Assembly (NCBI RefSeq): GCF_004358185.1
Contig: NZ_SMUV01000056.1
Coordinates: 1 to 64,000 of the forward strand
Origin: Antarcticimicrobium luteum
GTDB taxonomy: Bacteria > Pseudomonadota > Alphaproteobacteria > Rhodobacterales > Rhodobacteraceae
Reading direction: 5' to 3'
DNA: 64,000 nt
How positions within the stretch are numbered: position 1 is the first letter of the stretch; every line of letters begins with the position of its first letter. The notes beneath the pieces are model-generated. The model was not told where the DNA came from, did not search any database, and saw nothing but the letters and a program-made list of their open reading frames with translations. Below, piece after piece: positions 15,792 to 35,012 of the stretch. Position numbers and translations under genes: made by a program.

Positions 15792-15800
15792 GAGTCATAC
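15792..15800. promoter_or_regulatory. Candidate integrase arm site, left end
   Basis: GAGTCATAC at 15792-15800 is the reverse complement of the GTATGACTC motif repeated beside attR. It lies 54 bp inside attL, in the non-coding DNA between the junction and the kinase gene. Its presence at both ends points to recombinase binding rather than chance. Confidence 0.55.
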
Positions 15801-15848
15801 GAGTATGCCGATTTTCAGAAATTGTACCGCCCCGGCGAAAGATAGGCC

Positions 15849-18044: not shown

Positions 18045-18046
18045 GA

Positions 18047-18793: not shown

Positions 18794-18797
18794 GGGG

Positions 18798-19475: not shown

Positions 19476-19529
19476 GTTTTCACCTCAGACGCTATAGTTT
19501 CACTGGGCCGAAAAAGGTCCATTTTCTCG

Positions 19530-19549
19530 CACCCTACCACCGTAGGGTG
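19530..19549. promoter_or_regulatory. 8-bp inverted repeat in the divergent intergenic region
   Basis: CACCCTAC-CACC-GTAGGGTG is a perfect palindrome with a 4-nt spacer. It lies 55 bp upstream of the terY-like gene and 111 bp before the start at 19660. It is suited to a dimeric repressor controlling the triad, the divergent operon or both. No cognate regulator is evident next to it. Confidence 0.5.
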
Positions 19550-19659
19550 AGCGCGGGAAGCGGTTATGTCTGATGAGTGTTTCCCCCCTTGTATCTTGAT
19601 TGTGGGGCGCGAAGTTCATAGTCTCCGCGTAGAACAAAACGCGAATTTAAAGGCTGCAC

Positions 19660-20190: not shown

Positions 20191-20205
20191 GGGAGAAGAA
20201 GAAAC

Positions 20206-21051
20206 ATGGACGATAAAATCCCGTCACCAGTCATCGGCGTGTTGGGTGAGGTCTTCAGCGATCACTACACGCATTCGGATATTGACCGGCTTTTCACCTA
20301 CGCGGACGCGCCGGGGGATGCTCCGGAGGGCAACAAAGTCAAGAAAACCGTCGAATGGTTGCGATGGACCAACAAGCAAACCGAAAGGCCGTTGGAAGTG
20401 CTGGGGACACTCTTGGAGGACCTTCTCGAAAAGGAGCCTTGGGATTCCGCCTACAGTCCACCTTGGGCTACCGATGATGAGCCGGAATGGTCTGTCACCC
20501 TGCGAAGTCGCCAAGATCGCATTCGTACCGCCTTGGGCAAGGCAGGGCTGGCCTATTCTTCTGGCGGACATGTGGGATCCGCATCAGCTACACCCACGGC
20601 GTCACTGCGGGAAATGATCGAACGCGGCGGGTTATCAGCCGTTGCAGTGGAAATGACACGGGCACTCAAACAGGTTGAGGGCGATCCGAATGCCGCTGCC
20701 CACTACGCCGGGAATGTGCTGGAAGCTGCGCTGAAAGCCTACCTTACCAAGAAGGGCGTCACGTTCAACGATCAGAGCGAGACTTTGAATGGCCTTTGGC
20801 AACTCACACGCGATGATCTTGGGATCAACCCGAAAAACCTCGAAGCCAAGGACCTGAAAAAGATCGCGTCCGGGCTGAACAGCATAGTTGATGGGACGAT
20901 GTATATGAGGAACAAGAAGAGCGGCGCGCATGGTCGAACAGAGGACCAGTTGCGCGCCGCGGTTCTTCGCCCGCGCCATGCTAGGTTAGTCATCCATTCG
21001 GCGCATACGCTGGCGGCATATGTTCTGGAGTGCCTCGCGGACGCTCCATAG
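20206..21051 (+). CDS. Abortive infection (Abi_C/HEPN) domain protein
   Basis: In the 281-residue protein, the first half (about 1-125) has no recognised fold. The second half (about 145-280) resembles the Abi_C C-terminal domain, with LEAALKAYLTKKGV, IASGLNSIVDGTMYMRNK and a final AAYVLECL helix. R235-x6-H242 in RNKKSGAHG fits the HEPN nuclease motif. Abi_C proteins occur in phage-defence loci and probably cleave RNA on infection. The gene is paired with the 19660 gene and followed by a membrane-anchored protein gene after about 60 bp. RNase activity is inference from the motif. Confidence 0.78.
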   Translation: MDDKIPSPVIGVLGEVFSDHYTHSDIDRLFTYADAPGDAPEGNKVKKTVEWLRWTNKQTERPLEVLGTLLEDLLEKEPWDSAYSPPWATDDEPEWSVTLRSRQDRIRTALGKAGLAYSSGGHVGSASATPTASLREMIERGGLSAVAVEMTRALKQVEGDPNAAAHYAGNVLEAALKAYLTKKGVTFNDQSETLNGLWQLTRDDLGINPKNLEAKDLKKIASGLNSIVDGTMYMRNKKSGAHGRTEDQLRAAVLRPRHARLVIHSAHTLAAYVLECLADAP

Positions 21052-21113
21052 AAACATGAAGCCCGCACCACTATATTGTGAGCGTCGGGCGCAAATGAAT
21101 CATAGGTATAGTG

Positions 21114-22202
21114 ATGGCGGATGATAGCGATGAAGGCGAAGGGGAAGGCCGCAGGGCCTTTGATCTATCTGAGCTGACTGGGTTCGGCGAGGACTATTTC
21201 AGCGCATCCGATAGGCTTGCCAGAGAGTACGAGAAGCTGAACCCGTCGCTATCTGCGATCACGAAAGCCTTTGAGGTGTCCGGGTTGGGAAGTCTATCCA
21301 GCGTCATGGATGCGGCTGGGATGAACGCTGCTCAACAGGCACTTGGTTTGGGCAAAACCGGCGAAATCGGGCAGATCATGGACGATCTGACAGGCACCAA
21401 GGCGCTCGCCGAAGCGACCCGCAGCCTTCAAATGCCGAGTGTTGGAATTCTTGCTGACCTTACCAAGAGCCTCGACTTGGTGGGTTTCAACGCGGCGGCC
21501 CAACGAATCCTAGACACGGATAGCATGGTCGGAAGCACCTTCTCTCGCCTGACGCAGGATTTGCAAACCGGCATCGCGGTACAGGCGATGCGCGCCATGG
21601 AAATGCCGGGCCTGCAAAATATTCTTGGAACTCTGAACACGGGCGGCATTGGACGGGCCATTGCCGATGCAAACCTCGCGCTTGGTGTCGGGCTGCCTGC
21701 AACGTTTGGGCAGGATTTGCAGTCGGCGGTTGGTGGCCTCGCCAACCATATGGGCGCGATGGGGGAAATTGGCCGCGCCCATCAGGCGGCATTCGAGAGT
21801 TTCCGGCTTACAAACCTTGAGACGCTGTTGGCCAAATCGTTGGCGGTCCATGAAGCGCTGCTGGAAGAACAGCAACAAGCTACGCTCGACGCGAAGGCCG
21901 AGGCGAAGTTCAACAGGCGTTTGGCCGTGGTACTCGCAGTCATCAACATCATCATGCTCCTAATGTCGATGGTCGGCACGATAGAGGACTGGATGACCGA
22001 TGAAGACGCCGCGACGAAGGCCAACACCGCCGCAATCGTGGAAATGCGTGACGCCTTTGACGCCATGGCGAGCGAAATGGAAGCCATGCGCGCGACACAG
22101 GAAGCCGAAGCAGAACGGCAGTCGGAAGCCGATGCTGAAATCGCTGGGATACTACGGGATATTGCCGACGCTCTTGCTGACCGAACGGAGACTGACGAAT
22201 GA
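21114..22202 (+). CDS. Hypothetical protein with one C-terminal membrane segment and coiled coil
   Basis: The 362-residue protein begins with an acidic stretch. It continues through a long helical region (about 60-240) rich in Ala, Gly, Leu and Met with a repeating LQMPSVG / MEMPGLQ style. One hydrophobic segment (LAVVLAVINIIMLLMSMVG, about 274-292) follows, then a charged coiled-coil-like tail rich in Glu and Ala. ATG 21114 was chosen over the adjacent GTG 21111. It lies 62 bp after the Abi_C gene on the same strand, separated by a weak GCCCG/CGGGC hairpin. No family is recognised. A membrane-linked effector or sensor for the adjoining Abi_C module is a guess from context. Confidence 0.6.
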   Translation: MADDSDEGEGEGRRAFDLSELTGFGEDYFSASDRLAREYEKLNPSLSAITKAFEVSGLGSLSSVMDAAGMNAAQQALGLGKTGEIGQIMDDLTGTKALAEATRSLQMPSVGILADLTKSLDLVGFNAAAQRILDTDSMVGSTFSRLTQDLQTGIAVQAMRAMEMPGLQNILGTLNTGGIGRAIADANLALGVGLPATFGQDLQSAVGGLANHMGAMGEIGRAHQAAFESFRLTNLETLLAKSLAVHEALLEEQQQATLDAKAEAKFNRRLAVVLAVINIIMLLMSMVGTIEDWMTDEDAATKANTAAIVEMRDAFDAMASEMEAMRATQEAEAERQSEADAEIAGILRDIADALADRTETDE

Positions 22203-22333
22203 CGATGTGGAAGCGGATTCCTCAACGCTAGTCCGGTCGCATAGTTATCATAGGGCGCTGTGGACCTGAAACACATTCTCCAAAAAAGGTAGTTGACAAT
22301 CCGTCCGCGGCATGAACCGTTCGTGTCCCTCGC

Positions 22334-22362
22334 TTGACATTTTGATTCGTTTCATGTACAAG
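22334..22362 (+). promoter_or_regulatory. Sigma-70-type promoter for the regulator operon
   Basis: TTGACA at 22334-22339 and TACAAG at 22357-22362 are separated by 17 bp. Transcription would start near 22370 and run through two small hairpins into the gene at 22451. Confidence 0.6.
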
Positions 22363-22377
22363 TGAAGCACATTCAGA

Positions 22378-22415
22378 GAACGCTGATGGCGTTCTAGACA
22401 GTGCCGGGGGCACTG
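22378..22415 (+). promoter_or_regulatory. Leader with two consecutive hairpins
   Basis: GAACGC-TGATG-GCGTTC (22378-22394) and CAGTGCC-GGG-GGCACTG (22399-22415) are perfect stems 4 bp apart, between the promoter and the gene start at 22451. No U-run follows. They could be RNA leader structures that affect translation, or DNA operators for the HTH protein encoded just downstream. Confidence 0.5.
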
Positions 22416-22450
22416 TGAATCTTCACCGAAAAACAGAAATGGAGGGTCCA

Positions 22451-23017
22451 GTGGATCAGGGACTCCACACCGTATCCGTGCGGGATATTTGCGCGGTCTA
22501 TGACGTAACTACTCGCACCGTTAACCGGTGGCTGAATGAAAGCGGCGAACCCGCGCCACGTTTCCGGGGTGGGGAAGAAGCCTACTTCGCGATAGCAGAC
22601 TTGATGCTACGCATTCCGCGTGACCCTGCGCCGTTGCTGTCGTTGGATCGCCAGCGGCGACCGGACGCATCGCCCGAGATCGGTTTAGGCTACGAGATCA
22701 CCAAGCGCGCAAAGCGCCTCTGGATGGTTATTACGCCCGAGCAGCGGCAGAAAATGTCCGAGGTGCAGGCGGCATATCGAGAGGCGGTGGCGCGTGCCTT
22801 CTGGGAAAAGGTCCTGTTTCTGGACTCGGATCACCTCACGCAATCTCTCTCGCTGCATCCTGCCATCCTACAGGCTGTGGTCGGAAATGCCGATTTGCCA
22901 GAGGACTGGGAAGACTTCTGCATCGCATTCACCCTCGCAAACACGTCGCCTAAGAGCCTTTGGCGGCTGACGAAATCACATACCTATAACGAAGGAAAAA
23001 CTACCCATGCCGCATGA
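22451..23017 (+). CDS. HTH (MerR-like) DNA-binding protein
   Basis: The start is assigned to GTG 22451 (188 residues), because GGAGGG lies 5 nt upstream; an earlier GTG at 22415 falls within a hairpin and lacks a ribosome binding site. Residues about 8-50 (VSVRDICAVYDVTTRTVNRW followed by a wing-like GGEEAYFAIADL) look like a MerR-type winged helix. The rest is helical with unknown role. The position right after the leader, upstream of the tiny-gene cluster and primase, suits an early regulator or an excisionase-like factor. The 3' end overlaps the next gene by 11 bp. Confidence 0.65.
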   Translation: MDQGLHTVSVRDICAVYDVTTRTVNRWLNESGEPAPRFRGGEEAYFAIADLMLRIPRDPAPLLSLDRQRRPDASPEIGLGYEITKRAKRLWMVITPEQRQKMSEVQAAYREAVARAFWEKVLFLDSDHLTQSLSLHPAILQAVVGNADLPEDWEDFCIAFTLANTSPKSLWRLTKSHTYNEGKTTHAA

Positions 23018-23417
23018 TAGCGATTTTCAGATCACCGACGAGATGATCGAATTCAACACCGAAGCCCGTGGCGCGACCGCTGCGCTATTGGAAAACCTCA
23101 AATCCACATCCGCCGGTGCGCGCCTATCGGCCACCATCGCCAAGGTTACTGGATTGGTGGCCCAGAGATACGGGGTCGTGATCGACAGTGATAGCGCCCT
23201 TATGTTGCCGGGTGTCAAAGCGGCGGTGATGGGGTCTGACCTTCTTGATGAAGACAGTCTCTTGTTTGCCGCCGAGCAAAAGATTGCCGCCGTGGCCTTC
23301 AAGGCTCTGGGTGGGTCTAACGGGGGAGGGGCCAGCGACACACGAGTCCCCGACAACTTCGATACTATGTCCCCTCAGGCGCGCATCAACTGGGCGCGAC
23401 AGAACGGGGTTGCGTGA
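23007..23417 (+). CDS. Hypothetical protein (136 aa)
   Basis: The frame overlaps the regulator gene by 11 bp, so it is probably translationally coupled to it. The product is helical and Ala/Ser-rich, with a Gly/Ser linker (GGSNGGGASD) and a short tail (MSPQARINWARQNGVA) that resembles small phage proteins. No domain is recognised. It is part of the early region upstream of the primase. Confidence 0.6.
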   Translation: MPHDSDFQITDEMIEFNTEARGATAALLENLKSTSAGARLSATIAKVTGLVAQRYGVVIDSDSALMLPGVKAAVMGSDLLDEDSLLFAAEQKIAAVAFKALGGSNGGGASDTRVPDNFDTMSPQARINWARQNGVA

Positions 23418-23485
23418 TGAGCTGGCAAGATAAGCAACTAATCGTTCTCCAAGCGAACGTTGGTACGGGGAAGGCGGTTCAATGA
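23417..23485 (+). CDS. Possible 22-residue microprotein
   Basis: ATG 23417 overlaps the preceding TGA (TGATG), and the TGA at 23483-23485 overlaps the next gene's ATG. The 22 residues begin MSWQDKQLIVLQ. Its only support is the exact chaining of overlaps, which suggests it may serve for translational coupling. Confidence 0.35.
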   Translation: MSWQDKQLIVLQANVGTGKAVQ

Positions 23486-23742
23486 TTGCCGATATCGACC
23501 GCGTCACCGACCAGCTTAAGGCCGAACTGGCGCAGATCGCAGCCGTGCACGGAGTCGCAGTGGTGGACCTGCGCGCGAGCGAGGTCCGCAGCCGCTACGG
23601 TGTAAACGGAACCGTGATGGCGCGGGCGCTGCGCAACGCTGGATTTTGGCTGTGCGATGACAACCGCTGGCGAGCGATTGCGGGCGCGTCACAGATCGCA
23701 ATTACAGGGACGACCAGCGACGGGGGCACTCCCGCCCCCTGA
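23482..23742 (+). CDS. Hypothetical protein (86 aa)
   Basis: The product is a small protein whose central part (VDLRASEVRSRYGVNGTVMARALRNAGF, about 29-56) could fold as a helix-turn-helix. The tail WLCDDNRWRAI resembles phage-encoded DNA-binding proteins that read out a winged element. A GGGGAAGG ribosome binding site lies upstream. It is followed by about 235 bp of very GC-rich sequence with no gene. Function unknown. Confidence 0.55.
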   Translation: MIADIDRVTDQLKAELAQIAAVHGVAVVDLRASEVRSRYGVNGTVMARALRNAGFWLCDDNRWRAIAGASQIAITGTTSDGGTPAP

Positions 23743-23977
23743 GGCGTTGGGGAAGGGCGGGGCGTCTGCCACGGCAGTCAGCCCGCCCGATGACCAATCC
23801 CCCGCGACAAGTCCAGCGGCGCGGGGTGGGGAGTGTGGCCCCCGAGGGGCGGCGGTTTCGTGTCACGCCGCCGCCCCACTATCAGAATACCTGCGCGACC
23901 GCAGAACCGTGCCGGACAGGCGGCGGGGTGGTGGAAGGTAACTGTCCCGCGCGCCACGCATCGAGAAAGGAAAGAGT

Positions 23978-24124
23978 ATGACGAAGGCACAGGTCGCGAC
24001 GGCGGAAGTGATGGAGATTTGCGAGAAGCTGGATGATCTGAGCGCGAATCCGGTGAACGGCGGGGACATGGTCCGCTTACTCGGTCTCTCAAGAAAGCAC
24101 TGGATCGGCAGGCCCGCGAGATGA
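23978..24124 (+). CDS. Small hypothetical protein (48 aa)
   Basis: ATG 23978 has a good GAAAGGAAAG ribosome binding site. The product contains VMEICEKLDDLSANP and a possible short HTH (MVRLLGLSRKHW). The stop (TGA 24122-24124) overlaps the ATG at 24121, coupling it to the next small frame. Unrecognised; size and location suit an early phage-type gene. Confidence 0.5.
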   Translation: MTKAQVATAEVMEICEKLDDLSANPVNGGDMVRLLGLSRKHWIGRPAR

Positions 24125-24267
24125 AGAAGCAGGCCGATATAGGCCTGTGTCAGGAAAACCGGACATTTCCCGTTGCAGCGCCGCAACACGGCCCGAAAAG
24201 CGACACATGCAATGCGGGATTGTGGGCGGTGAAGATCACCCAAAAGGGCGTCTTTTCGTCTTCATGA
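24121..24267 (+). CDS. Small hypothetical protein (48 aa)
   Basis: This frame starts on an ATGA overlap with the preceding small gene and ends at 24267. The residues show no recognisable pattern and the C-terminus is Ser-rich. It is supported only by the overlap and intact frame, and could be spurious. Confidence 0.35.
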   Translation: MKKQADIGLCQENRTFPVAAPQHGPKSDTCNAGLWAVKITQKGVFSSS

Positions 24268-24296
24268 CGAACCATTTTTGATCGGACGGTCAAGGA

Positions 24297-24308
24297 GTCG
24301 TCTTTAAG
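24297..24308. promoter_or_regulatory. Shared 12-bp motif GTCGTCTTTAAG, copy 1
   Basis: The same 12 bp occur at 31811-31822, where they form part of a palindrome upstream of the PrtN-like gene. Here the motif lies 84 bp upstream of the small gene at 24393. Two copies in front of two operons of one element suggest a shared operator or activator site. Confidence 0.4.
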
Positions 24309-24392
24309 GTAAATGTCCGAATTTAATGAATATTTTCAGAGTTCGCAGTTGCGGCTATGCTGGTCATGCAACCATGAGAAGGAGAACTAAGC

Positions 24393-24569
24393 ATGACCGT
24401 AGATCAGACAATCACCGGCGCCATGACCTTGAGTGACACTATCGCAGAAAGTGTCCTGTCCAGCCGTTCGAACGGGGCGGCAATCGCCGCAGCAGAACAG
24501 CTTCTGATCGTCCTGAGGGCGCAGGCCGAATTGATCGGGCGCGATAACGTGGTGCCGCTTAATGGATAA
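24393..24569 (+). CDS. Small hypothetical protein (58 aa)
   Basis: ATG 24393 follows a strong GAAGGAGAAC ribosome binding site. The product is a helical, Ala-rich 58-residue peptide (MTVDQTITGAMTLSDT at the N-terminus, then NGAAIAAAEQLLIVL). It overlaps the next gene by 8 bp, forming a coupled pair just upstream of the primase gene. Function unknown. Confidence 0.6.
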   Translation: MTVDQTITGAMTLSDTIAESVLSSRSNGAAIAAAEQLLIVLRAQAELIGRDNVVPLNG

Positions 24570-24942
24570 GCCGCGCATCAAGTTAAAGGTATGGGGCAAG
24601 GACCGCAATTTTAACCACCTCAAGTGCTGTGCGCTTTCGCGTACACGGGAAGGCGACCCGCGTTACTACAAGGAGGCCGAGGAACAGCACGGGGAACGTG
24701 CAATGGTCAATTACATCCGTCATGAGTACACCAATTATGATGACCTCATTGAACGGGGATATGACCGTGACGAAGTCCGCCCGTTGGTGCTTCGAAGGAT
24801 CGGGGAAGCGTACCCCTCCCTGCTTAGGGAGTGCACCCGTCAGGGCGCGGATATGACGGGCTACAAGTTTGATCTGGTGCCTAACGAGCAAGGAATCTTG
24901 CAACGTGTTTGGCGGCACGATCAAGTCGCCAGACCCGTCTAA
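24562..24942 (+). CDS. Hypothetical protein (126 aa)
   Basis: The product is charged and Tyr/Arg-rich (WGKDRNFNHLKCCALSRTRE, then YIRHEYTNYDDLIERGYD), with no recognised domain. It is coupled to the upstream 58-residue gene and lies 125 bp before the primase start. Its position suggests a replication accessory role, but no motif supports this. Confidence 0.6.
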   Translation: MDKPRIKLKVWGKDRNFNHLKCCALSRTREGDPRYYKEAEEQHGERAMVNYIRHEYTNYDDLIERGYDRDEVRPLVLRRIGEAYPSLLRECTRQGADMTGYKFDLVPNEQGILQRVWRHDQVARPV

Positions 24943-25066
24943 TACAACACGATAGAGCCGTCCCCTAACGGGGGCACAACGTAAGATCGGACCCACCGAA
25001 TACAATGTCCGCACAACGCCGATTCAGGCGGCGGGTGAGGTGCGTCCAAAATATGGAGCAGTAAAA

Positions 25067-28000
25067 ATGAATCTTTCAGCGGCGCAGGCGTTCGAGACCG
25101 CCGGGGCAGGAGCACGGGAAGCGTGGGCGGAGGTGATCCAGTTCCCCATTAACCTGATGGGGGGCCGCGTTAGCGGCGGCAAGACTGCCGAACCGGCGTT
25201 CGACATGGAAGCGGAGCGCGGCGAGGATATCAACGACGCCGCCACCTACGGCGGAATGTCGGAAGGGCTTGCGGAGTTTCTGAACAAGGACGCCACGTTC
25301 CTGATCGGCCAGATGTGGGGCGCAAAGGATCGCCGCAACACACAGGACGGCGATTGGCAGGCTGTGACCATGCCGTGGGGCCGCTGGATCGAAGGCGGAC
25401 CCGCGACGGGCAAGCGCCCGGTGTGGGGCTTCTCCCGCCACCCAGAGGGAAAGCACAAGGAAGGGGCATCCATCGTTCTAGGATCGTCAATCGAAGGCGC
25501 GCGCAAAGCAAATGCAATGGACGAGATGTACGCCCTTGGTCTCGATATCGACTCCGGGGCGGCGCTGGATGATGTAATCGCCACGGTCCGCCGCAAGAAC
25601 CTGTGCGCCCTGATCTATACCAGCCACAGCCACGGCAAGCGCGGCCTTGAGCTAAAGCGCGATGACGTCATGCGCAAACTCGGGATCGACACGGACCCGA
25701 CCTTGCCGCAGGTACAAGAGTATCTGAGGGCGCACAGCAAGAGCCGGTACGAGGAATCTTTCGTCGCCGCCGTGACCATCGCAGACCAAAAGCGCCAGAC
25801 CAAGGAAGGCGTTAAGATTGCGCTGGACACACCGCCGCTGGATAAGTTCCGCATCATCTTCCCGCTTGCCGACGCGGTGAAGCTGATCGACCTTGCTCCA
25901 ACGCAGTCTGCGGCCCTTGAGGTGTGGGAAGACAAGATCACCGGCATGGCCCAGCGTGAACTTGGAATCCACTTCGACACGTCGTGTACTGACCCGTCGC
26001 GCCTGTTCTATACCGCGCGGCATGCCAAGGAATCCGAATGGGACTGCCTGATCCTGTGGGGCGAACCGCTGCGGTTCGAAGACGTGCCCACGATGAAAAA
26101 GGCGGAGTATACCCGGACCCGTGGCGGCGGCAACGCGTTCAGCATCGCCGGGGGCGATGCTGAAAAAGCGCCCGAGGCCGTCACCCCGTCCGGGAAGAGC
26201 CTCAACGAATGGCACTTCAGTCGCGGCGGCGCGAAAGACAGATTCCAACTGGCGTCTTTGCTGGAAGACCTGTGCCCGGACAAGATCCGCCATGCCGGGG
26301 GCGAGGCTCAGGGGCAGGTGCACACAGAATGCCCGTTCGAGCATGAGCACTCGAAATGGGGCGGCACCGCCACGATGGCAATCGACGCCATGGACGCAGA
26401 CAGAGGCTATTGGACGTGGTTCTGTCACCACGACTCCTGCCAAGGACGGCACAAGCTTCAGTTTCTGGAAGAGGCCTTGAATCAAGGTTGGTTTACAGAG
26501 GAAGACCTATTCAACGAGGATGGGCCGTACCTGTTGCCGCCGGGCGAGGAAGTCACCGGCACGCCAGGACGGCAAGACAGTGGTTCGGAAGTGGCCGCGT
26601 CAGCGGCTGACGCCGCCAACTACTTCGTACAGGCCGGGGAATTCGACAAGAACACCCGAGGGGTGGACGTCGAAAAGTGGATGAAGCAATTCGCTGGTAA
26701 GGAACTGGACCCGGCGGACAAAAACCAAATCACCGATATCATCGTGGAACGGACGCCGCTCGGTAAGCGCGATGTAAACAAGATGTGGTCCAAGGTGGAC
26801 CGCGTAAAAGAGCGCATGGCGGCGAACGAGGCTAAGGCCAAGGCGGACGACTCCGGCGTGATCATGACGGACGGCGACTTCACCGACATGTGCGACAAGG
26901 CGCAGGGCATGGTAGACGCGGCTAACGCCGCCACGCCCTTCCTGTTCGTCCGGGGCGGGGAACTGTGCACCGTGCAAGAGGACGATGGAATCTCCGGCAT
27001 CAAGGTTCTGTCGTCGCAAGGTGCGTTTGCTTACTACCTCAACACGGCGGCACGGTTCGCCAAGCGCATGGGCGATGACGTACAAGGCGCGCCTGCACCT
27101 ATCGAGGTGGAAAAGCACCTGTATCACGCGCCGCGTAATCGCTACCCCGGCTTGAAGGGTGTGACGTCCAATCCGTTCTTTACGAAAACTGGTGATCTGG
27201 TGACACAGCCGGGATATCACGACGAGTCTCAGATGTACTACGCGCCCGGTGATTTTGTGGTCCCCGGCGTCAGCCGGAATCCGTCACTGGAGGAGGCCAA
27301 GGCCGCGATTGATATGCTGGCGGATGCACTGGCAGACTTCCCCTTCGATGGGCTGACCCGCGCGCAGATCAAAGAACAGTTTTGGGAAGGTGGAGTCCCG
27401 TCTCTGGTCAACTTCCTGTCGGCGCTTCTGCTGCCGTTCATGCGTGAAATGATCGACGGCAGGACGCCGGGGCACGCGATCAACAAGCCCTGTCCCGGCA
27501 CCGGTGCAAGCTACCTTGTGGATGTTCTGAGTATCATCAATACCGGGGAAGATACGCCCGCGCACAAACCATCCGAGGACAAAGCGGAGTTTGCCAAGGC
27601 GCTGGTGGGGCTGTTGCTGGACGGTGACCCTATCATCAACTTGGATAATATCAGCGCCGGTATGGATAGCGGAGAACTTGCGGCGGCGATGACATCAAGC
27701 AAATACTTCCCCCGGATTCTCGGGAAGTCTGAGACCCGGAAGATTGCCGTTACTTGCCTTTGGCTTCTGACTGCGAACAAGCTGGAACTGTCCGATGAAC
27801 TGAAACGGCGCTGCATCCTGATCGCTCTGAATGCCAACATGGAAAATCCGGAAGACCGGACGGGATTCCAGCGCTCCGATATCCGGGGATATGTCCGCGA
27901 GAACCGGGCGGAATTCGTTCATGCTTGCCTGACGATCATTCAATTCTGGGTAGCCTCAGGCATGGAACAGGATGACACCAAGCACCTAGCCTCATTCGAG

Positions 28001-28312
28001 AACTGGGCGCGCGTCATGGGCGGGGTGTGGAAAGCATGTGAGGTGCCGGGATTCATGGGCAACATGCACATGTTGAAAACACTGACCGATGGCAAGCGCG
28101 ACGAAATGGGCGAGTTGATTCAGGCGCTGGTGGATGCTGCGGTATCGACCGACAAGGAATTGACTGCCGAGTCCTACCTGTTCAAGGCGCGCAAGGCAGG
28201 GAGCGACGACAAGTTCCTGAGCGTGATGGGCGTGCTGAACGCGTTCGAAGAGCCGCCACGGTTCGCGAAATGGGGAGGCGTTGAACGAGTCGAAGGCTGG
28301 TCTCGCCTCTGA
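25067..28312 (+). CDS. Large primase/AAA+ helicase-like replication protein
   Basis: The start is set at ATG 25067 (1081 residues). The N-terminal half resembles phage and plasmid primase-polymerase proteins: an ALIYTSHSHGK segment near 180, a FRIIFPLAD strand near 255, and FDTSCTDPSRLFYT near 303. A Cys/His cluster follows (TECPFEHEHSKW ... FCHHDSC, about 420-460) that could bind zinc. The C-terminal part is AAA+-like, with a Walker A-like PGTGAS (about 808-813) lacking the usual lysine, Walker B LDGDPIINLDN (about 848-858) and sensor LLTAN (about 899). It probably starts replication of the excised element. The missing lysine may weaken ATP use. Confidence 0.7.
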   Translation: MNLSAAQAFETAGAGAREAWAEVIQFPINLMGGRVSGGKTAEPAFDMEAERGEDINDAATYGGMSEGLAEFLNKDATFLIGQMWGAKDRRNTQDGDWQAVTMPWGRWIEGGPATGKRPVWGFSRHPEGKHKEGASIVLGSSIEGARKANAMDEMYALGLDIDSGAALDDVIATVRRKNLCALIYTSHSHGKRGLELKRDDVMRKLGIDTDPTLPQVQEYLRAHSKSRYEESFVAAVTIADQKRQTKEGVKIALDTPPLDKFRIIFPLADAVKLIDLAPTQSAALEVWEDKITGMAQRELGIHFDTSCTDPSRLFYTARHAKESEWDCLILWGEPLRFEDVPTMKKAEYTRTRGGGNAFSIAGGDAEKAPEAVTPSGKSLNEWHFSRGGAKDRFQLASLLEDLCPDKIRHAGGEAQGQVHTECPFEHEHSKWGGTATMAIDAMDADRGYWTWFCHHDSCQGRHKLQFLEEALNQGWFTEEDLFNEDGPYLLPPGEEVTGTPGRQDSGSEVAASAADAANYFVQAGEFDKNTRGVDVEKWMKQFAGKELDPADKNQITDIIVERTPLGKRDVNKMWSKVDRVKERMAANEAKAKADDSGVIMTDGDFTDMCDKAQGMVDAANAATPFLFVRGGELCTVQEDDGISGIKVLSSQGAFAYYLNTAARFAKRMGDDVQGAPAPIEVEKHLYHAPRNRYPGLKGVTSNPFFTKTGDLVTQPGYHDESQMYYAPGDFVVPGVSRNPSLEEAKAAIDMLADALADFPFDGLTRAQIKEQFWEGGVPSLVNFLSALLLPFMREMIDGRTPGHAINKPCPGTGASYLVDVLSIINTGEDTPAHKPSEDKAEFAKALVGLLLDGDPIINLDNISAGMDSGELAAAMTSSKYFPRILGKSETRKIAVTCLWLLTANKLELSDELKRRCILIALNANMENPEDRTGFQRSDIRGYVRENRAEFVHACLTIIQFWVASGMEQDDTKHLASFENWARVMGGVWKACEVPGFMGNMHMLKTLTDGKRDEMGELIQALVDAAVSTDKELTAESYLFKARKAGSDDKFLSVMGVLNAFEEPPRFAKWGGVERVEGWSRL

Positions 28313-29807
28313 CGATCTGTGGACTCGTCTCGCAAACAGCCTGCGCGGCTACACCGGCGACGCACAGGGCCAAATCCGGCGCATGGGCGACGAACTGGAC
28401 CTGTCCAAGGTGCAGGCCACATCGCTGCACAGCGCCCTTACCGCCGCGATCAACACCGATGACCCGTCAGCATATGCCGACGCCCTGCGCGGCGTTAGAG
28501 GCCAGCTAACCGCAGTTTCCGGCGGCGTCGAGAACATGACCGGAAGTCAGCGGGCTTTCTATGAAATGCTGGTGGAGTCCGAGGACAAAGCCCGCCAATT
28601 GGCGGCGCTGGACATGGCTACCCCCGTGTCCGCTGCAGCGGATGAAGCCGCCCGGCTGGCGGAAAAATTCGGGCTATCGCTGGGGCTGGCCCGCCAACTG
28701 GCGAACGTGGGTAAGAAGCCGGGCGGAACCGTGTCTGGTTTCGAATCCAATGACCCTCGGAATCCATCGAATGCCGGTAAGTGGACCGGCGGTTATTCCA
28801 CGTCATGGGAAGCTTGGACCCCGAAAAAATCGCGGGGCGGGGGCGGCGCAAATCTGACCGACGATCTGACCCGCACCACGGCGGCGATGCGTGAGCAGGG
28901 ACTCGCATTGGAGGCGCTGGCAGCGGGCCGTTACAGCAGCGAAGAGGCCGCGCGCCTGTGGGCGCAGGCCATGGTTGAAGGCAACGGCACCATCGACGCG
29001 CAGACCGCCGCAATGCTGGTGAATATCGACACGATGGCCCAACGCAATGAGGCCATGCGCAACGCGCCTGCCGACTTCGGCAAGGAACTGGCAGCGGGCA
29101 CTGAGACAGCGCTTGAAAACGCCATTCGGGAGGGCCTGACCGGCGGCAAACCTTCGATACAAAACTTTGCCAAGGCCATTCAATCGCACGTCGCCGGGGC
29201 GCTGGCAAAATCGCTCGCAACGAAAATTACAAGCGGTCTAGGCCTTGACCGGCTGTTCAACGCAGGCGGGACCACAGCGGCAGCCCAAATGCAGGCTGGA
29301 ATTGTGACCGGGGGTAACATCGCCGCCCAAACCATCGCGCAGGCGGTGGCGACCGGCAACGCGACAGCCGCAGCAACCGGCGGGGGCGGTGGGTCCGGAA
29401 ATTGGCTATCGACCGCCTTGAATTTCGCTGTGTCGGCGTTCACCGGCGTTCCGATGTTCAAAGAAGGTGGATTCAGTGACGCTCCACACCCGTTCGCCAA
29501 TGCCCCGCACTATGCCGAGGGTACATCCAACACGTCGAACGGAATCCCCGCTGTGCTGCACCCGAACGAGGCAGTCGTGCCCCTGACGCGTGGACGTAAA
29601 ATTCCGGTTGAGGGCGCAGGCGGCGGGGGCAACAACTTCGGCGACATCAACATCGCTACCACCGTGAACGTAGAAGGGGACTCCAACGCTGAGGACTCCG
29701 CCAAGATCGCGCAGGCGGTGGGCGAGACAGTGGACGGCCGCATTCGCCAGATTTTGGCTGAAGAATCCGCCTACGGCGGCATCATGAACCCGCGCGGCGG
29801 GTACTGA
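28281..29807 (+). pseudogene. Phage tail tape-measure protein, C-terminal fragment
   Basis: About 500 residues match the C-terminal half of tape-measure proteins. There are long Ala-rich helical repeats, a hydrophobic glycine-rich segment (NWLSTALNFAVSAFTGVPMF, about 374-393), and the very typical ending FKEGGFSD ... GIPAVLHPNEAVVPL ... GRKIPVE. The frame overlaps the end of the primase gene by 32 bp and has only a TTG with no ribosome binding site, so the normal N-terminal part is gone. No other tail gene is present. It is either a deletion scar or a retained fragment. Translation by coupling to the primase stop cannot be excluded. Confidence 0.75.
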
Positions 29808-29838
29808 GCCACCCAAATCGAGCACAGAAAGAAAGAAC

Positions 29839-30099
29839 ATGAATCACCTGAAAATCATCGAACGCGGCGGACGCGTATCTGCGCCGCTGGCACTGGAAAA
29901 AGGCCCGCATGCAGTCATCGCAGAAGGCACCCGCGACGGCGCAGGCCTGCGCATCGGCTGGCAGCTATTCCCGCTGACCGGCCTAAACATCATCGAACTG
30001 GAAGGCGGCACCACCACCGCCGAACTTGTCAACACCGGTCCAGACACCGACGCTGCAATCTACCTCGCCAAGCTCCACCCCGTCGCGGGGGGCAACTGA
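29839..30099 (+). CDS. Small hypothetical phage-like protein (86 aa)
   Basis: The gene has an AGAAAGAAAG ribosome binding site before ATG 29839. The product looks beta-rich (APLALEKGPHAVIAEGTRDG, then IIELEGGTTTAELVN) with no cysteines and no membrane segment. It sits between the tape-measure fragment and the terminase small subunit gene, starting 1 bp before the latter's ATG. Phage structural accessory proteins of this size are common; no family is recognised. Confidence 0.6.
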   Translation: MNHLKIIERGGRVSAPLALEKGPHAVIAEGTRDGAGLRIGWQLFPLTGLNIIELEGGTTTAELVNTGPDTDAAIYLAKLHPVAGGN

Positions 30100-30100
30100 C

Positions 30101-30637
30101 ATGGCCCGCCTTGGAAACCACAAACATGAGCAATTTTCTCAACTAATCGCCGCAGGCGGCAAGCAGCGGGAGTCGTACATCGCCTGCGGGTATAGTGAAA
30201 AGAACGCAAAATCGCACGCCAGCCACCTAGCGGCTCGCCCGGACGTGAAGGCCCGGATTGAGGAATTGCAGGGGCAGGCGCTGGCACCGGTCATCGGCAA
30301 CATCGACCTCCCGTGGCTCACTGTGCCATGGCTTGCGGCCCAGTATGACCTAATCAGACAGAAGGCCATGGCGGCTGGGGACATGAAAACTGCGTCCGCG
30401 ACAGTGAAGAACGTTCAAAGCCTCATTGACCTTGAGTCACGCCTAGCCACCGAGAAAGCAGCCCCCCCCACGCCGGTGGCCCGAATAGACGTCAACGCCC
30501 TTGGCGGCATCTTGGGGAAGGTGGAAAACATCGTGAAGGCATCCAAGGCCCCGGCACCGGGGTGCGTGGAACTCGACTCGACGGTCCCCGCCGTCGTCAA
30601 GCTGCGGGCATACCGGGCGGCTGATCGCGCGACATGA
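30101..30637 (+). CDS. Terminase small subunit-like protein (TerS)
   Basis: ATG 30101 gives 178 residues. The N-terminal 60 or so (EQFSQLIAAGGKQRESYIAC, then GYSEKNAKSHASHLAARPDV and KARIEEL) follow the Terminase_2/phage HTH pattern, where a helix-turn-helix is followed by a charged helix. The remainder is helical (about 75-125) with a less ordered tail. A small terminase recognises packaging sites and normally works with a large ATPase/nuclease subunit, which is absent here. An orphan small terminase is a hallmark of phage-inducible chromosomal islands, which redirect helper packaging. The next gene is convergent, 15 bp away. Confidence 0.72.
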   Translation: MARLGNHKHEQFSQLIAAGGKQRESYIACGYSEKNAKSHASHLAARPDVKARIEELQGQALAPVIGNIDLPWLTVPWLAAQYDLIRQKAMAAGDMKTASATVKNVQSLIDLESRLATEKAAPPTPVARIDVNALGGILGKVENIVKASKAPAPGCVELDSTVPAVVKLRAYRAADRAT

Positions 30638-30652
30638 GCGCGACCGGCAATT

Positions 30653-31666
30653 TCATTGCTCAGTGGTCATTGCTCTACGCCGAACCATTTCCTGCATTCC
30701 CATATCGGTAAGAGACCAAAACAGATTAACGCCACCACCTACGGTTTTCGCGGTTTTTACCGACACAAGATTCAGCGCCATGAGCTGAATCTTAATGGTT
30801 TGAAACAGTTCATCGGTCATTACAAACGATCTCCCGCTCCTGTTTCCCGTGTTGAACCTTCTCCAGACGCCTTCGCAAATAATAGGGCCAACTGTCCTAT
30901 CGGGTTTTGCCTGCATCAAATGGGGTGCCAACAACTCGAATATCTCTCCAAGGCTGGTGGCTATCTCGATGCTAGATGTCGTTGATGAGTATTGGCCCGG
31001 CCTTGTATGTGAGTACTTCCCGGTTAGGGTGATGAACGTATCCAATCCTGCAAGGTTCTCCGGTACGGCAACCTGCGGCTTTGCTTCCGCCAAAACCTGT
31101 TTCAAGCGCTCGTTTTCCTCCTGAACAGCGACTAGCCGTTCAAGAGTTTCCTGAGAGGATGATTGGTCACCTCTAATCCATCCGGGCCGGTGTTTGGTTG
31201 CCTTGGCGTAATCCAACGCTTCGCGGATCGCCAGCTTAAGACCGTCTGTGGTTGTCCAGCCCTTGCGCAGCCTTCCGTCCGAAACAGTGGCAATGAACGC
31301 TTCCAATTTGGCCCGTTTCTCCGGATGGTCTTCCGTCTTGTTGGCGGGAAGTTCACCGCGCTCGTCCCGTAGCATAACGAGTACCGGGACACCGATTTCG
31401 ACTGCGTAGTCATATTCTTTTTCGGTATAGCTTTTTCCGTCAGGAGCTAGAGAGCCATAGCGACCAGCGATTATGAGCACATAGTAATCGCACTGCGAGA
31501 TAATGGTTTTGATGAACTCGAACTGTTCTTCGTCGGCTGCGGGAAATGCTTCCATGCCGACCGGGAAGTCCCCCGCGCGAATGATTGTCTGTTCGACGGC
31601 TTTACGCTCTTCCTTCAGGTCCTCATAGGTCGAGCTAATGAAAACCTGATACCTCTTCTCGCTCAT
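30653..31666 (-). CDS. DUF4062 protein (TIR-like N-terminal domain)
   Basis: The 337-residue product starts with the signature YQVFISSTYEDLKEERKAVE (about 6-25), followed by QCDYYVLIIAGRYGS and SYTEKEYDYAVE, which define DUF4062. A coiled-coil stretch (LERLVAVQEENERLKQVLAE, about 174-193) leads to a C-terminal domain with a final helical part. DUF4062 shares the flavodoxin-like fold of TIR/SEFIR domains and is common in proteins suspected of defence or signalling. The gene is the only minus-strand cargo in the right half of the element and ends 16 bp from the TerS gene. Role unproved. Confidence 0.8.
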   Translation of the reverse strand: MSEKRYQVFISSTYEDLKEERKAVEQTIIRAGDFPVGMEAFPAADEEQFEFIKTIISQCDYYVLIIAGRYGSLAPDGKSYTEKEYDYAVEIGVPVLVMLRDERGELPANKTEDHPEKRAKLEAFIATVSDGRLRKGWTTTDGLKLAIREALDYAKATKHRPGWIRGDQSSSQETLERLVAVQEENERLKQVLAEAKPQVAVPENLAGLDTFITLTGKYSHTRPGQYSSTTSSIEIATSLGEIFELLAPHLMQAKPDRTVGPIICEGVWRRFNTGNRSGRSFVMTDELFQTIKIQLMALNLVSVKTAKTVGGGVNLFWSLTDMGMQEMVRRRAMTTEQ

Positions 31667-31965
31667 GAAATCGGGCCTCTACTTATTATCGCTTTGCACG
31701 CATCGTGCATTGATTAGCGCGAACCTGCAACCTCTAGGCGACATGCCGTATCGATTTTACACCGTTCTATTCGACGGTAGCTACAAACCCCATCCCAATG
31801 ATGCAAGAAAGTCGTCTTTAAGACGAATAACATGTTGATAACGTGTATTTTTTTTAGATCTTGGGTGTGATTCAGGATTGCAAAACGTGTTGCACGATGC
31901 TAGGTGAAACCTACCGAAACACGGAAAGGAATTCGGCATGAAGCACTAGTAAAAGGAGACCTATA
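31667..31965. other. Divergent promoter region with three palindromes
   Basis: The roughly 300 bp between the DUF4062 gene and the PrtN-like gene have no gene. They contain TGCACG-CAT-CGTGCA (31695-31709), TCGTCTT-T-AAGACGA (31812-31826, overlapping the second GTCGTCTTTAAG motif) and a T-rich run near 31848. A further GTTGCACGATGC near 31890 repeats part of the first palindrome. This is a likely control region for both genes. Confidence 0.6.
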
Positions 31966-32226
31966 TTGAACACACAGTTCCTGTTGATGGCCCGGTATGA
32001 GGGCGCAACGATGATCCCGGCGGACACCGTCCGCGAAGACTTTTTCCCACACCTGACCCGTCCCAAGTTCCTGCGAAAGATCGCGGACGGGGATATCAAG
32101 TTGCCGGTGGTCCAGATGGAAGAAAGTCAGAAGAGCGCCAAGGGTTTCGATATCCGCGACCTTGCCGCATACTATGACGAACGGCGGGACCAAGCCCGCC
32201 GCGATTTCGAAAAATTGCATCACTGA
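31966..32226 (+). CDS. Pyocin activator PrtN-family regulator
   Basis: TTG 31966 is used as the start because AAAGGAG lies about 8 nt upstream and the residues from there match PrtN proteins: NTQFLLMARYEGATMIPAD, FFPHLTRPKFLRKI, and LPVVQMEESQKSAKGFDIRDLAAYYDERR. The 86-residue length is normal. PrtN activates pyocin operons in Pseudomonas, and relatives occur near phage and defective-phage genes. Here it lies in the right end, upstream of two small genes and facing the integrase. It probably controls element genes in response to stress, but its target sites are unknown. Confidence 0.82.
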   Translation: MNTQFLLMARYEGATMIPADTVREDFFPHLTRPKFLRKIADGDIKLPVVQMEESQKSAKGFDIRDLAAYYDERRDQARRDFEKLHH

Positions 32227-32236
32227 GGGCGGCGGT

Positions 32237-32569
32237 ATGATTAAGAAATACACCCGCGAGCGCCTCTATTCTCGCCCCGATCTGACCGAACGGGGATGGA
32301 CGAAATCCATGCAGGATAGGTACCTGCCGGAACCGGACGATTTCAGGGAGAACCCGCATTATAAATGCGCCGGAGTCATGCATTTGTGGCTGCGGGCGCG
32401 GATTCACCGCATCGAAAAAGGTAAAAGGTTTCAGGCGACCAAGGCGCGGGCTGACGCCCGTCGCGCCAAGTTGCCAGAGCGGCAGAGCAAGCCGCGCATG
32501 ACAGCCTTGGAACGTAGGCAGACGGAGCATGACGCGGCATATGCTGCGGGGGATGGCTACTATGACTGA
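32237..32569 (+). CDS. Hypothetical protein (110 aa)
   Basis: ATG 32237 follows the PrtN gene by 10 bp, with GAGGGCGGCGG as ribosome binding site. The product is strongly basic and rich in Arg/Lys and aromatic residues (YTRERLYSRPDLTERGW, DRYLPEPDDF), so a DNA- or RNA-binding role is possible. No family is recognised. Its 3' end overlaps the next gene by 8 bp, so the three genes form one operon. Confidence 0.65.
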   Translation: MIKKYTRERLYSRPDLTERGWTKSMQDRYLPEPDDFRENPHYKCAGVMHLWLRARIHRIEKGKRFQATKARADARRAKLPERQSKPRMTALERRQTEHDAAYAAGDGYYD

Positions 32570-32753
32570 GCAAGCAATGCCCGATGGTGTAGAAGTCGCC
32601 CGCACTGCCCTTGTAGCCATGGGGTGGGATGGCGTAGATCAAGGCCCAGTCGCCGCTCTAATCTACTTCCTGACGCAGGAGATTAAGGCGGAGGGATACC
32701 CCGGCGAGAGTACAAGAAGTATGCTTCACGCTATCGCGGAGCATTACGGGTGA
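32562..32753 (+). CDS. Small hypothetical protein (63 aa)
   Basis: ATG 32562 (reading MTEQAMPDGVEVARTAL) overlaps the stop of the preceding gene and is preferred over the earlier in-frame ATG at 32529. The product is a short helical, acidic protein. It closes the PrtN operon and is followed by a terminator hairpin. Function unknown. Confidence 0.55.
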   Translation: MTEQAMPDGVEVARTALVAMGWDGVDQGPVAALIYFLTQEIKAEGYPGESTRSMLHAIAEHYG

Positions 32754-32760
32754 AGTGAAA

Positions 32761-32789
32761 CAGGTATGCCCCCGTTAGGGGGGCACCTG
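32761..32789. terminator. Bidirectional terminator hairpin
   Basis: The stem pairs CAGGT.GCCCCC with GGGGGGCACCTG around a GTTA loop, with a small bulge. It lies between the converging PrtN operon and the integrase gene and would stop transcription from either side. Confidence 0.7.
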
Positions 32790-32790
32790 T

Positions 32791-33885
32791 TCAGGTGACA
32801 GCTTCAATCCATTTCCAGTCCTGATACTTGTCACCGCTTTGGCGGACGTGGGTGTAACGCTCTAGGCTCTTCCATGCCTTGTGACCGGTCACTGCGGCGA
32901 GTTGCGGGACCGTACGCCCCATTTCAGCTAAGCGGCTGGTGCCTTCATGCCTGAGGTCATGGAAATGCAAATCCTCTATACCGAGGAACTTGCAGGCTTC
33001 CGTGAACCTGCGGCTGACCGTGTCGCTGTTGTACGGGAATATCCGGTCTTTCTTCCGGGGCATGGTGTCGATGATGGCACAGCACGGGTCGGGAAGTTCC
33101 ACCCACGTATCAACGCCCCTCTTAGCGCCGGGGTTTTTCATCTTTCGAACGAGGACTCGCTTGTGGTCTGGTTCGTAATCACCCCACGCAATCCGCAGAA
33201 TCTCCGCCTGACGGCGGGTGCTGAAAATCGCAAAGGCCGTGATGATGTGCATAGGCATCGTGCGGGTGTCTGCTTCTGTGGCCTGCTGGAAATGCTCCAT
33301 AAGCCTGTCCAGTTCTTCCAGCGTGGGGCGGCGCGTCCGCTCTTCCGGCTTGCTGACGAAGCCCATGGTGCCGCAAACCTTCTGGGCGTCCTGCATAGCC
33401 TGCGAGTTCAGGGGATAGCCCCAGAGGGGGCGGGCGGTTGAGAACACCCCAGACAGGTGCGAGAGGTAGTTGAGGGCCGTCGCCGGGGAGTTCAGGCCGG
33501 GGCGCTTGTGCAGTTCCTTGACGAAGGCAACGATATGGTGGGACTCGATCTGGTCGCAGGCCATGTTCGCTATGTCGTACTCGTCCCGGATCGTTTTCAG
33601 CACCTGCGCCTTGGTCTTCCCGATTTCCCGCATGGACTCCTTGACGTACTGGTCTATGGCATCCCCGAGAGTCACGCCCTTTTCGCTACGCTTCTTGACT
33701 TCGCGACCGGCGGCGATATCCGCGTCAATCTCAGCCTCACGCTTCTTTGCCCATGCCTGAGCGGTCTTCAGTTTGTCAAAGGACCTTGTTTCAGTGTATC
33801 GCTTGCCGCTGGGGAGTGTCCTAGTGATCTGGGCTTTGTGCCCGGTTGATCCGTCCTTGCGCTGTACGGGTGGGAAGGTGGCCAT
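32791..33885 (-). CDS. int: Tyrosine-type site-specific integrase (dusA-associated)
   Basis: ATG 33885 is chosen (364 residues, beginning MATFPPVQRKDGSTGHKAQI); longer frames run into the repeat-rich attR region. The N-terminal arm-binding and core-binding domains occupy about 1-180. The catalytic residues are all visible: Arg in STRRQAEILRIAW (near 225), Lys in VRKMKNPGAKRG, HxxR in FHDLRHEGTSRLA (near 320), His in TGHKAWK and Tyr in LERYTHV (near 350). It catalyses integration and excision at dusA. It lies at the right end facing inward, with the start 101 bp from the dusA start. This matches the dusA-targeting integrases known in proteobacterial prophages and islands. Confidence 0.93.
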   Translation of the reverse strand: MATFPPVQRKDGSTGHKAQITRTLPSGKRYTETRSFDKLKTAQAWAKKREAEIDADIAAGREVKKRSEKGVTLGDAIDQYVKESMREIGKTKAQVLKTIRDEYDIANMACDQIESHHIVAFVKELHKRPGLNSPATALNYLSHLSGVFSTARPLWGYPLNSQAMQDAQKVCGTMGFVSKPEERTRRPTLEELDRLMEHFQQATEADTRTMPMHIITAFAIFSTRRQAEILRIAWGDYEPDHKRVLVRKMKNPGAKRGVDTWVELPDPCCAIIDTMPRKKDRIFPYNSDTVSRRFTEACKFLGIEDLHFHDLRHEGTSRLAEMGRTVPQLAAVTGHKAWKSLERYTHVRQSGDKYQDWKWIEAVT

Positions 33886-33889
33886 TCTC

Positions 33890-33982
33890 GTATGACTCCG
33901 GTGTTGGTTCGTATGACTCCGAGTCATACAGTATGACAAAATGGGCGTAAATGGTCCAAAATAGGCCGAAATGGTATGACTC
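33890..33982. promoter_or_regulatory. Cluster of integrase arm-type repeats in the int-dusA intergenic region
   Basis: GTATGACTC occurs at 33890-33898, 33911-33919 and 33974-33982. Its reverse complement GAGTCATAC lies at 33921-33929, and a partial copy, GTATGAC, at 33931-33937. The same motif is found inside attL at 15792. All copies lie in the 101-bp gap that must also hold the promoters of both int and dusA. Confidence 0.65.
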
Positions 33983-33986
33983 GGTG

Positions 33987-35012
33987 ATGGTAAAAAAGAC
34001 TGCAAAATCAAGCGTTTCAAGGGCTTCAAGGCTATCTATTGCCCCGATGATGGACTGGACCGATCGCCATTGCCGCTATTTCCACCGGCTGCTCAGCCGC
34101 GAGGCGTTGCTTTATACCGAGATGGTGACCGCGCCGGCACTGGTGCGGGGCGGCGCGCTGCATCTGTTGGACCACAGCCCCGAGGAGCATCCTGTCGCGC
34201 TGCAGCTGGGCGGCTCGGACCCGGCGGAACTGGCGCGGGCGGCGCGGCTGGGGGCCGAGGCCGGCTATGACGAGATCAACCTCAACTGCGGCTGCCCGTC
34301 GGACCGGGTGCAGTCGGGCACATTCGGCGCGGTGCTGATGACCCGGCCGGGGCTGGTCGCCGATTGCGTCGCGGCGATGCGGGACGCGGTGGATGTCGAG
34401 GTCACGGTGAAATGCCGCATCGGGGTCGACGACCAGGATCCGGACCAGGTGCTGCCGGATTTCCTCGCGCGGGTTTCGGCGGCGGGCTGCGGCCGCTTCA
34501 CCATCCATGCGCGCAAGGCCTGGCTGCGGGGGCTGTCCCCGAAGGAAAACCGGGACATTCCGCCGCTCGATTACGATCTGGTGATGCGGATGAAGGCGGC
34601 GTTCCCGCATCTTCACCTTTCGGTGAACGGCGGCGTCGCCGCGCTGGATCAGGCAAGCGGCTTTCTCGATGCCGGGCTTGACGGGGTGATGATCGGGCGC
34701 GCAGCCTATCACACCCCGGCCGATATCCTCGCCGCGGCCGACCCGGTGATCTTCGGCACCGGCGCGGCGGCCGATCCGGTTCAGGTGGCGCGCGCCATGC
34801 TGCCCTATATCGACCGGCATATTGAGGCCGGCGGGCGGCTGCATCAGGTGACGCGGCACATGCTGGGCCTGTTCGCGGGGCGGCCCGGGGCGCGGGCCTG
34901 GCGGCGAATCCTGTCCGAGGGGGCGACGCGCCCCGGCGCCGGATCCGATCTGGTGGAACAGGCGCTGGCGCGGGTCGGGGCCGAGGCCTCGGCGCCACAG
35001 GGCGCGGACTGA
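33987..35012 (+). CDS. dusA: tRNA-dihydrouridine synthase A
   Basis: The 341-residue FMN-dependent enzyme reduces uridine in the D-loop of tRNA. It shows SIAPMMDWTDRHCRYFHR at the N-terminus, the catalytic cysteine in INLNCGCPSDRV, and SVNGGV and GVMIGRAAY in the barrel. Start ATG 33987 and the first 20 or so codons are supplied by the integrated element; the displaced host start lies at 15657. Codons before 34044 are AT-richer than the rest, matching a swap of the 5' end. The reading frame remains intact, so the element preserves function but replaces the promoter. TauE/SafE follows 72 bp downstream. Confidence 0.93.
   Translation: MVKKTAKSSVSRASRLSIAPMMDWTDRHCRYFHRLLSREALLYTEMVTAPALVRGGALHLLDHSPEEHPVALQLGGSDPAELARAARLGAEAGYDEINLNCGCPSDRVQSGTFGAVLMTRPGLVADCVAAMRDAVDVEVTVKCRIGVDDQDPDQVLPDFLARVSAAGCGRFTIHARKAWLRGLSPKENRDIPPLDYDLVMRMKAAFPHLHLSVNGGVAALDQASGFLDAGLDGVMIGRAAYHTPADILAAADPVIFGTGAAADPVQVARAMLPYIDRHIEAGGRLHQVTRHMLGLFAGRPGARAWRRILSEGATRPGAGSDLVEQALARVGAEASAPQGAD
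34044..34060. repeat. Right attachment core (attR)
   Basis: CCGATGATGGACTGGAC matches attL (15722-15738) at 16 of 17 positions. It lies in the dusA codons for PMMDW. The host gene continues downstream without interruption. Confidence 0.85.

Follow-up and report, generated by a model that had tools for sequence, protein, structure and literature searches.

What kind of element sits at the 5' end of dus in Antarcticimicrobium luteum, with an integrase, a primase-helicase, a small terminase subunit (TerS) and a PrtN-like gene close together? The window, that is, the whole stretch of DNA analysed here, covers positions 1-64,000 of contig NZ_SMUV01000056.1 in a host genome of 4.66 Mb, and element coordinates are given on that scale. 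An earlier note on it had read positions 22451-33885 as a candidate phage satellite lacking capsid genes, with a prophage reduced by deletion as the alternative. Comparison of sequences from related islands and phages makes it very probable, in our view, that the element belongs to a Rhodobacteraceae-specific satellite family parasitising ~150 kb siphophages of the RcXuper/DSS3P8 type, and that the window copy is internally deleted.

The borders and the integration module consist of the following features.

15656-15738, plus strand: attL, the displaced original 5' end of dus (MRSEPETPGQTALSRAARLSVAPMMDWT), ending in the attachment (att) core CCGATGATGGATTGGAC at 15722-15738.
15792-15800, minus strand: GTATGACTC site at the left end, a candidate integrase/Xis arm site.
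31966-32226, plus strand: PrtN-family directionality factor, Xis-like (PF11112, 3e-25; PHROG "excisionase", 8e-28).
32791-34029, minus strand: tyrosine integrase of the dusA type (Phage_integrase, PF00589, 3e-19).
33890-33982, strand not assigned: four clustered GTATGACTC sites at the right end, candidate arm sites.
34044-34060, plus strand: attR core CCGATGATGGACTGGAC, within the 5' end of dus (33951-35012).

The two 17-bp att copies (15722-15738 and, in the dus 5' end, 34044-34060) agree at 16 of 17 positions, where shuffled sequence is expected to yield none with one mismatch or fewer, and the displaced dus end at attL still codes for ...ARLSVAPMMDWT. The five GTATGACTC copies of the window all sit on the inner side of an element end, no more than 200 bp from it (0.13 expected); they are probably integrase/Xis arm sites, and island L042, also at dus, has the same arrangement at its ends. 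Since the att repeats and the GTATGACTC sites are confined to both ends, we place the element at about 15722-34043 (18.3 kb). It is thus larger than first proposed, and these borders put the TerY-P cargo and the Abi_C/AbiJ-like gene within it as well. A dusA-type integrase at the dus 5' end, with direct repeats, is the arrangement of a dusA-specific island, and integrase relatives at 68-74% adjoin dus in L042 and L052. The pairing of dusA integration with PrtN, once thought new, is ordinary, as a PrtN homologue occurs in 60 of 94 dusA islands (Farrugia et al. 2015, PMC4482086). A role for PrtN in activating late genes, peculiar to this element, was considered and rejected, since it is the usual partner in dusA islands and PHROG labels it an excisionase.

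Between these ends lies a core of phage-related genes.

22415-23017, plus strand: helix-turn-helix (HTH) protein, first gene of the core; family of ~170 residues that in other islands immediately precedes the mini-scaffold.
23007-23417, plus strand: mini-scaffold (CpmB-like by analogy), C-terminus MSPQARINWARQNGVA; family hidden Markov model (HMM) 3e-24, no curated family.
25040-28312, plus strand: primase-helicase, 1090 residues, C-terminal ~60-70 residues missing (phrog_10537, E 1e-249).
28270-28290, strand not assigned: deletion junction near 28277, primase 3' end running into the mid-part of the tape-measure gene.
28281-29807, plus strand: tail tape-measure gene, C-terminal ~470 residues only (phrog_9807 positions 1579-1949 of 1972, 4e-25).
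30101-30637, plus strand: TerS, in a reading frame that opens at 30026.

These genes point repeatedly to one group of phages. Among 50,697 phage records, the primase has its best matches in RcXuper, DSS3P8, vB_RpoS-V10, RpAliso, DSS3_MAL1 and MD18; the RcXuper/DSS3P8 group comprises six siphophages of 146-150 kb, which provide the sole phage matches of TerS, and three of them head the match list of the tape measure. With the scaffold motif described below, four genes thus have their best or sole phage matches in this group, and for TerS, the scaffold C-terminus and the tape-measure protein (TMP) the assignment to a single helper group is made by sequence alone.

The primase-helicase matches RcXuper RCXUPER_133 at 49% over 1002 residues. 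Neither Pfam nor NCBIfam gave a match, nor did a PDB sequence search; the best PDB folds for its predicted model are the SaPI5 primase-helicase (E 7e-7) and D5-type primase-helicases, at modest TM-scores, and the motifs GLDIDSG and CTDPSRLFY and a Cys/His cluster were recognised by eye. In island L005 the primase N-domain (10062-11405) is 77% identical to RcXuper in both protein and DNA while the other half is not alike, which suggests that domains were exchanged fairly recently with a phage of the helper type. Loci L035-L039 have the helicase half, in most cases beside a gene homologous to the RecD-like helicase of RcXuper (RcXuper 64.6-66.0 kb).

TerS scores slightly short of the curated cut-off for Terminase_2 (4e-5), matches the PHROG terminase small subunit at 4e-11 and aligns over its full length with the RcXuper TerS at 34%. 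In its first round, the TerS profile scored only the window, L046 (3e-9), L030, L044 and L033; it was then iterated, and more distant members depend on self-included profiles. Homology of the gene at 29839-30099 to the one immediately preceding TerS in RcXuper was considered and rejected for want of any similarity. Searches by PHROG, Pfam and RcXuper tblastn detected neither a large terminase nor a portal or capsid gene in the element. The earlier note was therefore right that integrase, primase-helicase, TerS and PrtN are all present (by profile, PHROG and fold matches) and that TerS stands without a large terminase or capsid genes. One structural gene, the tape measure, is present in part, and the note's inventory had passed over both this truncated gene (28281-29807) and the mini-scaffold (23007-23417).

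The mini-scaffold family consists of proteins of ~105-165 residues encoded directly after the HTH gene in many islands. Its members share a scaffold-like end, and in most of them the motif occurs once more, internally (e.g., MTPAQKLSFARQHGL in L033). An HMM built from the satellite C-termini and run against 1693 C-termini of RcXuper placed the phage's head scaffold at the top (E 3.5e-9); its E-value was 4e-7 after dropping L004, L033 and the window from the profile and ranged from 4e-7 to 1e-8 across omissions of close members. With 20 column-shuffled profiles as controls, the scaffold ranked 7th at best, and the top E-value for any C-terminus was 0.014. PHROG classifies the matched protein, RCXUPER_47, as a head scaffold (3e-30). 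It is encoded directly upstream of the major capsid gene, and its 34-residue C-terminus, used as a query, was significant only in the six RcXuper/DSS3P8-group phages (E <= 2e-10). The predicted model of the mini-scaffold consists largely of helices, a short one at the C-terminus covering the motif (mean predicted local distance difference test score 77). Of 397 genomes from the host family, 16 contained a member, as did, leaving out the genome of the window itself, 0 of 366 others drawn from the class, a spread that matches the host range of RcXuper-type phages, and the mini-scaffold gene lies 2-5 kb upstream of the primase at 14 of 18 loci.

The same core is repeated in other Rhodobacteraceae genera, at other att sites and with other integrases. 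Its usual order is HTH, mini-scaffold, TerS (in some), small genes, primase-helicase, defence cargo, serine recombinase and tape measure (in some), with the integrase at either end, and most of the 13 mini-scaffold islands have the HTH gene, the scaffold and the primase together with either TerS or TMP. Five relatives are delimited as follows.

L004 (Citreimonas salinaria DSM 26880): 14.8 kb, at tRNA-Thr, 25-bp repeat.
L032: 16.0 kb, at tRNA-Thr, 26-bp repeat.
L005: 16.1 kb, at tRNA-Phe, 53-bp repeat.
L066: 15.8 kb, at tRNA-Phe, 45-bp repeat.
L042: 14.2 kb, at dus, att-delimited.

With the window element, six att-delimited elements thus span 14.2-18.3 kb, inside the 5-20 kb range used for satellites. 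For 39 further island open reading frames, no head or packaging family stood among the first 25 of 30 matched PHROG families. L042 resembles the window in its integrase (68%), PrtN (60%) and TerY-P genes (73-82%). Besides the window, TerS homologues occur in eight islands (L029-L031, L033, L034, L042, L044 and L046), and TMP genes in L004, L005, L045, L066 and L067, with relics in L065 (3651-6899) and L068 (8758-9120), of which one has an in-frame TGA and the other is a 187-codon fragment beside an integrase-like remnant. TerS-bearing and TMP-bearing islands do not overlap, as if they followed two alternative routes of helper exploitation. Both occur together only in the window, where TerS is shifted rightwards and the TMP is broken.

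Could the element instead be a prophage, RcXuper-like or from another temperate phage at dus, that has lost its head and tail genes? A deletion did take place. The primase homology ends at ...AKWGG and runs into a tape-measure frame without its N-terminal half, where other islands have 3-6 kb of cargo, often with a serine recombinase; because of this fusion of a shortened primase to half a tape measure, we regard the window copy as internally deleted. The junction between primase and tape measure is genuine, the truncated TMP and TerS belong to the structural and packaging gene set of a large phage, dusA integrases serve prophages too (PMC4482086), and near the same integrase L053 shows TMP homology of the prophage type. 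Yet the compact block recurs, with no head genes detected, in other genera, at other att sites and with other integrases, and the phage genes lie at ~34 kb (tape measure), ~97 kb (primase) and ~127 kb (TerS) in RcXuper, so that a simple series of deletions does not give the order seen here. Moreover, the satellite TMPs are intact yet half-length: five measure 979-1081 residues against 1900 in RcXuper, keeping the first ~50 and last ~400 residues without the middle (the L005 end has 69% protein identity to RcXuper), and the window fragment scores 6e-127 against the satellite TMP HMM, in whose building it was included. A reduced prophage is therefore very improbable, already disfavoured by the att-bounded relatives, on account of which a lone prophage deletion was rejected as the principal explanation. 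What was reduced here appears to be a satellite.

The satellite reading of the earlier note thus comes through well supported, with changes. The gene order that it proposed to look for recurs in other Rhodobacteraceae genera (integrase, HTH, mini-scaffold, primase, TerS or TMP, and defence cargo), in att-delimited relatives without detected head genes; their sizes are 14-18 kb, and the dus site named in the note is shared by L042, with other relatives at tRNA-Phe or tRNA-Thr. Complete phages closely related through the primase are of the 146-150 kb RcXuper type or its environmental kin, not dusA prophages.

How such an element might live can be sketched from these homologies. A PrtN-type Xis and the integrase would excise it from dus, and the primase-helicase, kin to the helper's own, would replicate it. 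The mini-scaffold, ending like the helper head scaffold, may compete for the helper coat protein and redirect assembly, probably to small heads, and the element's TerS would steer the helper large terminase onto satellite DNA. In sister elements, the half-length TMP with helper-type N- and C-terminal ends would replace the helper's ruler and yield shorter, chimeric tails. With somewhat less than even confidence, we propose an undescribed satellite family that remodels both the helper head, through a mini-scaffold usually bearing two motif copies, and its tail, through a TMP of ~55% length with both ends, its lineages using either TerS piracy or TMP replacement.

The name of the helper is a separate matter. 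An unsampled siphophage with RcXuper-like scaffold, TMP and TerS could serve instead, which would change our reading in the helper's name alone; the window copy is only 34-50% identical to RcXuper, and environmental phages with related primases exist, as the primase, scanned against IMG/VR, hit large phage contigs of the RcXuper type besides an island-like provirus (L073). The high identities of L005, 77% in the primase N-domain (protein and DNA) and 69% in the TMP end (protein), point to the RcXuper group broadly, and we think another helper rather unlikely. Phages of the RcXuper type are isolated on laboratory bacteria, which opens the hypothesis to direct testing.

Further genes of the window element are cargo.

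15849-19475, minus strand: TerY-P cargo by Pfam, with kinase/Zn-ribbon (15849-18044), PP2C phosphatase (18047-18793) and VWA (18798-19475) genes.
20206-21051, plus strand: Abi_C/AbiJ-like cargo (PF14355, 4e-15; PADLOC AbiJ, 2e-12).
30653-31666, minus strand: DUF4062 cargo (PF13271, 5e-30).

The TerY-P triplet recurs in the L042 dus island at 80, 73 and 82% identity. The cargo slot varies by island and is filled with defence genes, namely DarTG in L067 (7696-9530), an HNH effector-like gene in L066 (8778-9539) and the AbiJ-like gene in the window (20206-21051). Such strong defence cargo (TerY-P, AbiJ-like and DUF4062 here, DarTG and HNH effector-like genes in relatives) would also suit a defence or genomic island in which the TMP fragment, TerS and mini-scaffold act as decoys that merely inhibit helper assembly with no packaging, as would the lack of a TMP N-terminus in the window. 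A replication protein, an Xis and a full-length TerS are hard to account for without mobilisation, and intact relatives retain both TMP ends, as tail assembly would require, which leaves a decoy island very improbable.

Several observations weigh against a functioning satellite of RcXuper-type phages. The window copy, its primase tail and TMP N-terminus gone, is damaged and may be immobile, and no intact relative carries TerS and TMP together. The P-loop of the primase-helicase (residues ~816-824) reads PGTGA with the lysine replaced, as in most aligned islands and the phage homologue, making helicase activity uncertain. The mini-scaffold resembles the phage scaffold in its C-terminus alone, its body being unrelated, and a fold search with its model gave no significant match to solved folds. 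The host genome yielded no RcXuper-type capsid protein or gene, so that a helper would need to infect from outside, and the IMG/VR primase scans returned no satellite-only virome contig.

The surroundings differ in character. The guanine-cytosine content drops from ~0.68 to ~0.57 left of dus. What lies to the left of the element was apparently acquired separately: a DDE transposase (DDE_Tnp_1_4, 6325-7677) and a low-GC stretch (8500-13574) that encodes a short RTX-repeat protein besides glycosyltransferase-like products.

Among known systems, dusA-specific islands share the integrase family, the 5' dus site and the PrtN homologue; the likeness concerns the integration module only, and the word "satellite" does not occur in PMC4482086. 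P4-like satellites share an integrase, a primase-helicase and capsid-size control, whereas Sid, Psu and Delta are absent from the Pfam and PHROG matches of the element, which has a TerS of its own. Taken singly, satellites, mimicry of scaffolds and piracy by TMP all have precedents; in the open-licence literature, we found no description of satellites of RcXuper-type phages or in Rhodobacter, nor of this family, its helper relation or this combination.

SaPIs and other PICIs come closer, with their own TerS, a size matching 14-18 kb and, in the SaPI5 protein, the best fold for the primase-helicase. The SaPI1 protein CpmB has a C-terminal RIIK helix-hook in common with the 80alpha scaffold (PMC5644958), and the mini-scaffold would by analogy be a small alternative scaffold sharing only the coat-binding C-terminus with that of the helper. 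The parallel lies in this logic of a shared C-terminus, as no sequence or fold homology to CpmB was found. Unlike SaPIs and PICIs, with which it has no detectable sequence homology, the element shows no AlpA- or Stl-like match in Pfam scans (the HTH family itself has no curated match), and its family has a tape-measure gene, mostly two-motif mini-scaffolds, dus or tRNA att sites and a 150-kb helper. The family would be an apparent example, beyond the Gram-positive SaPIs, of scaffold C-terminus mimicry directed at a very large helper, and Rhodobacteraceae defence genes (TerY-P, DarTG, AbiJ-like) are seen to travel on such elements.

The PLEs of Vibrio cholerae, with helper ICP1, are likewise small integrated satellites of a large phage with a TMP of non-helper length. 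PLEs also have a dedicated replication gene, as the element does. We know of no homology between the two, and they differ in host order and att sites. PLE heads are resized with TcaP (PMC10945586), whereas an internal-scaffold mimic is proposed here. Vibrio PLEs supplied the first demonstration, in 2026, that satellites pirate tails, their TMP giving chimeric, shorter ones (PMC12987554); the authors predicted wider occurrence and noted tmp genes in other satellites too (PLE-like elements and cf-PICIs), with which the present family is consistent. This family would add an independent case, in another bacterial class and with a named candidate helper group. The TMP of PLE11 differs from that of ICP1 by 95 residues, with tails ~10 nm shorter (PMC12987554), whereas the satellites described here have TMPs of ~980-1080 residues against 1900 in RcXuper, a gap of ~820-920 residues that is far above that of the PLE; given so large a difference, any tail resizing should be easily visible by microscopy.

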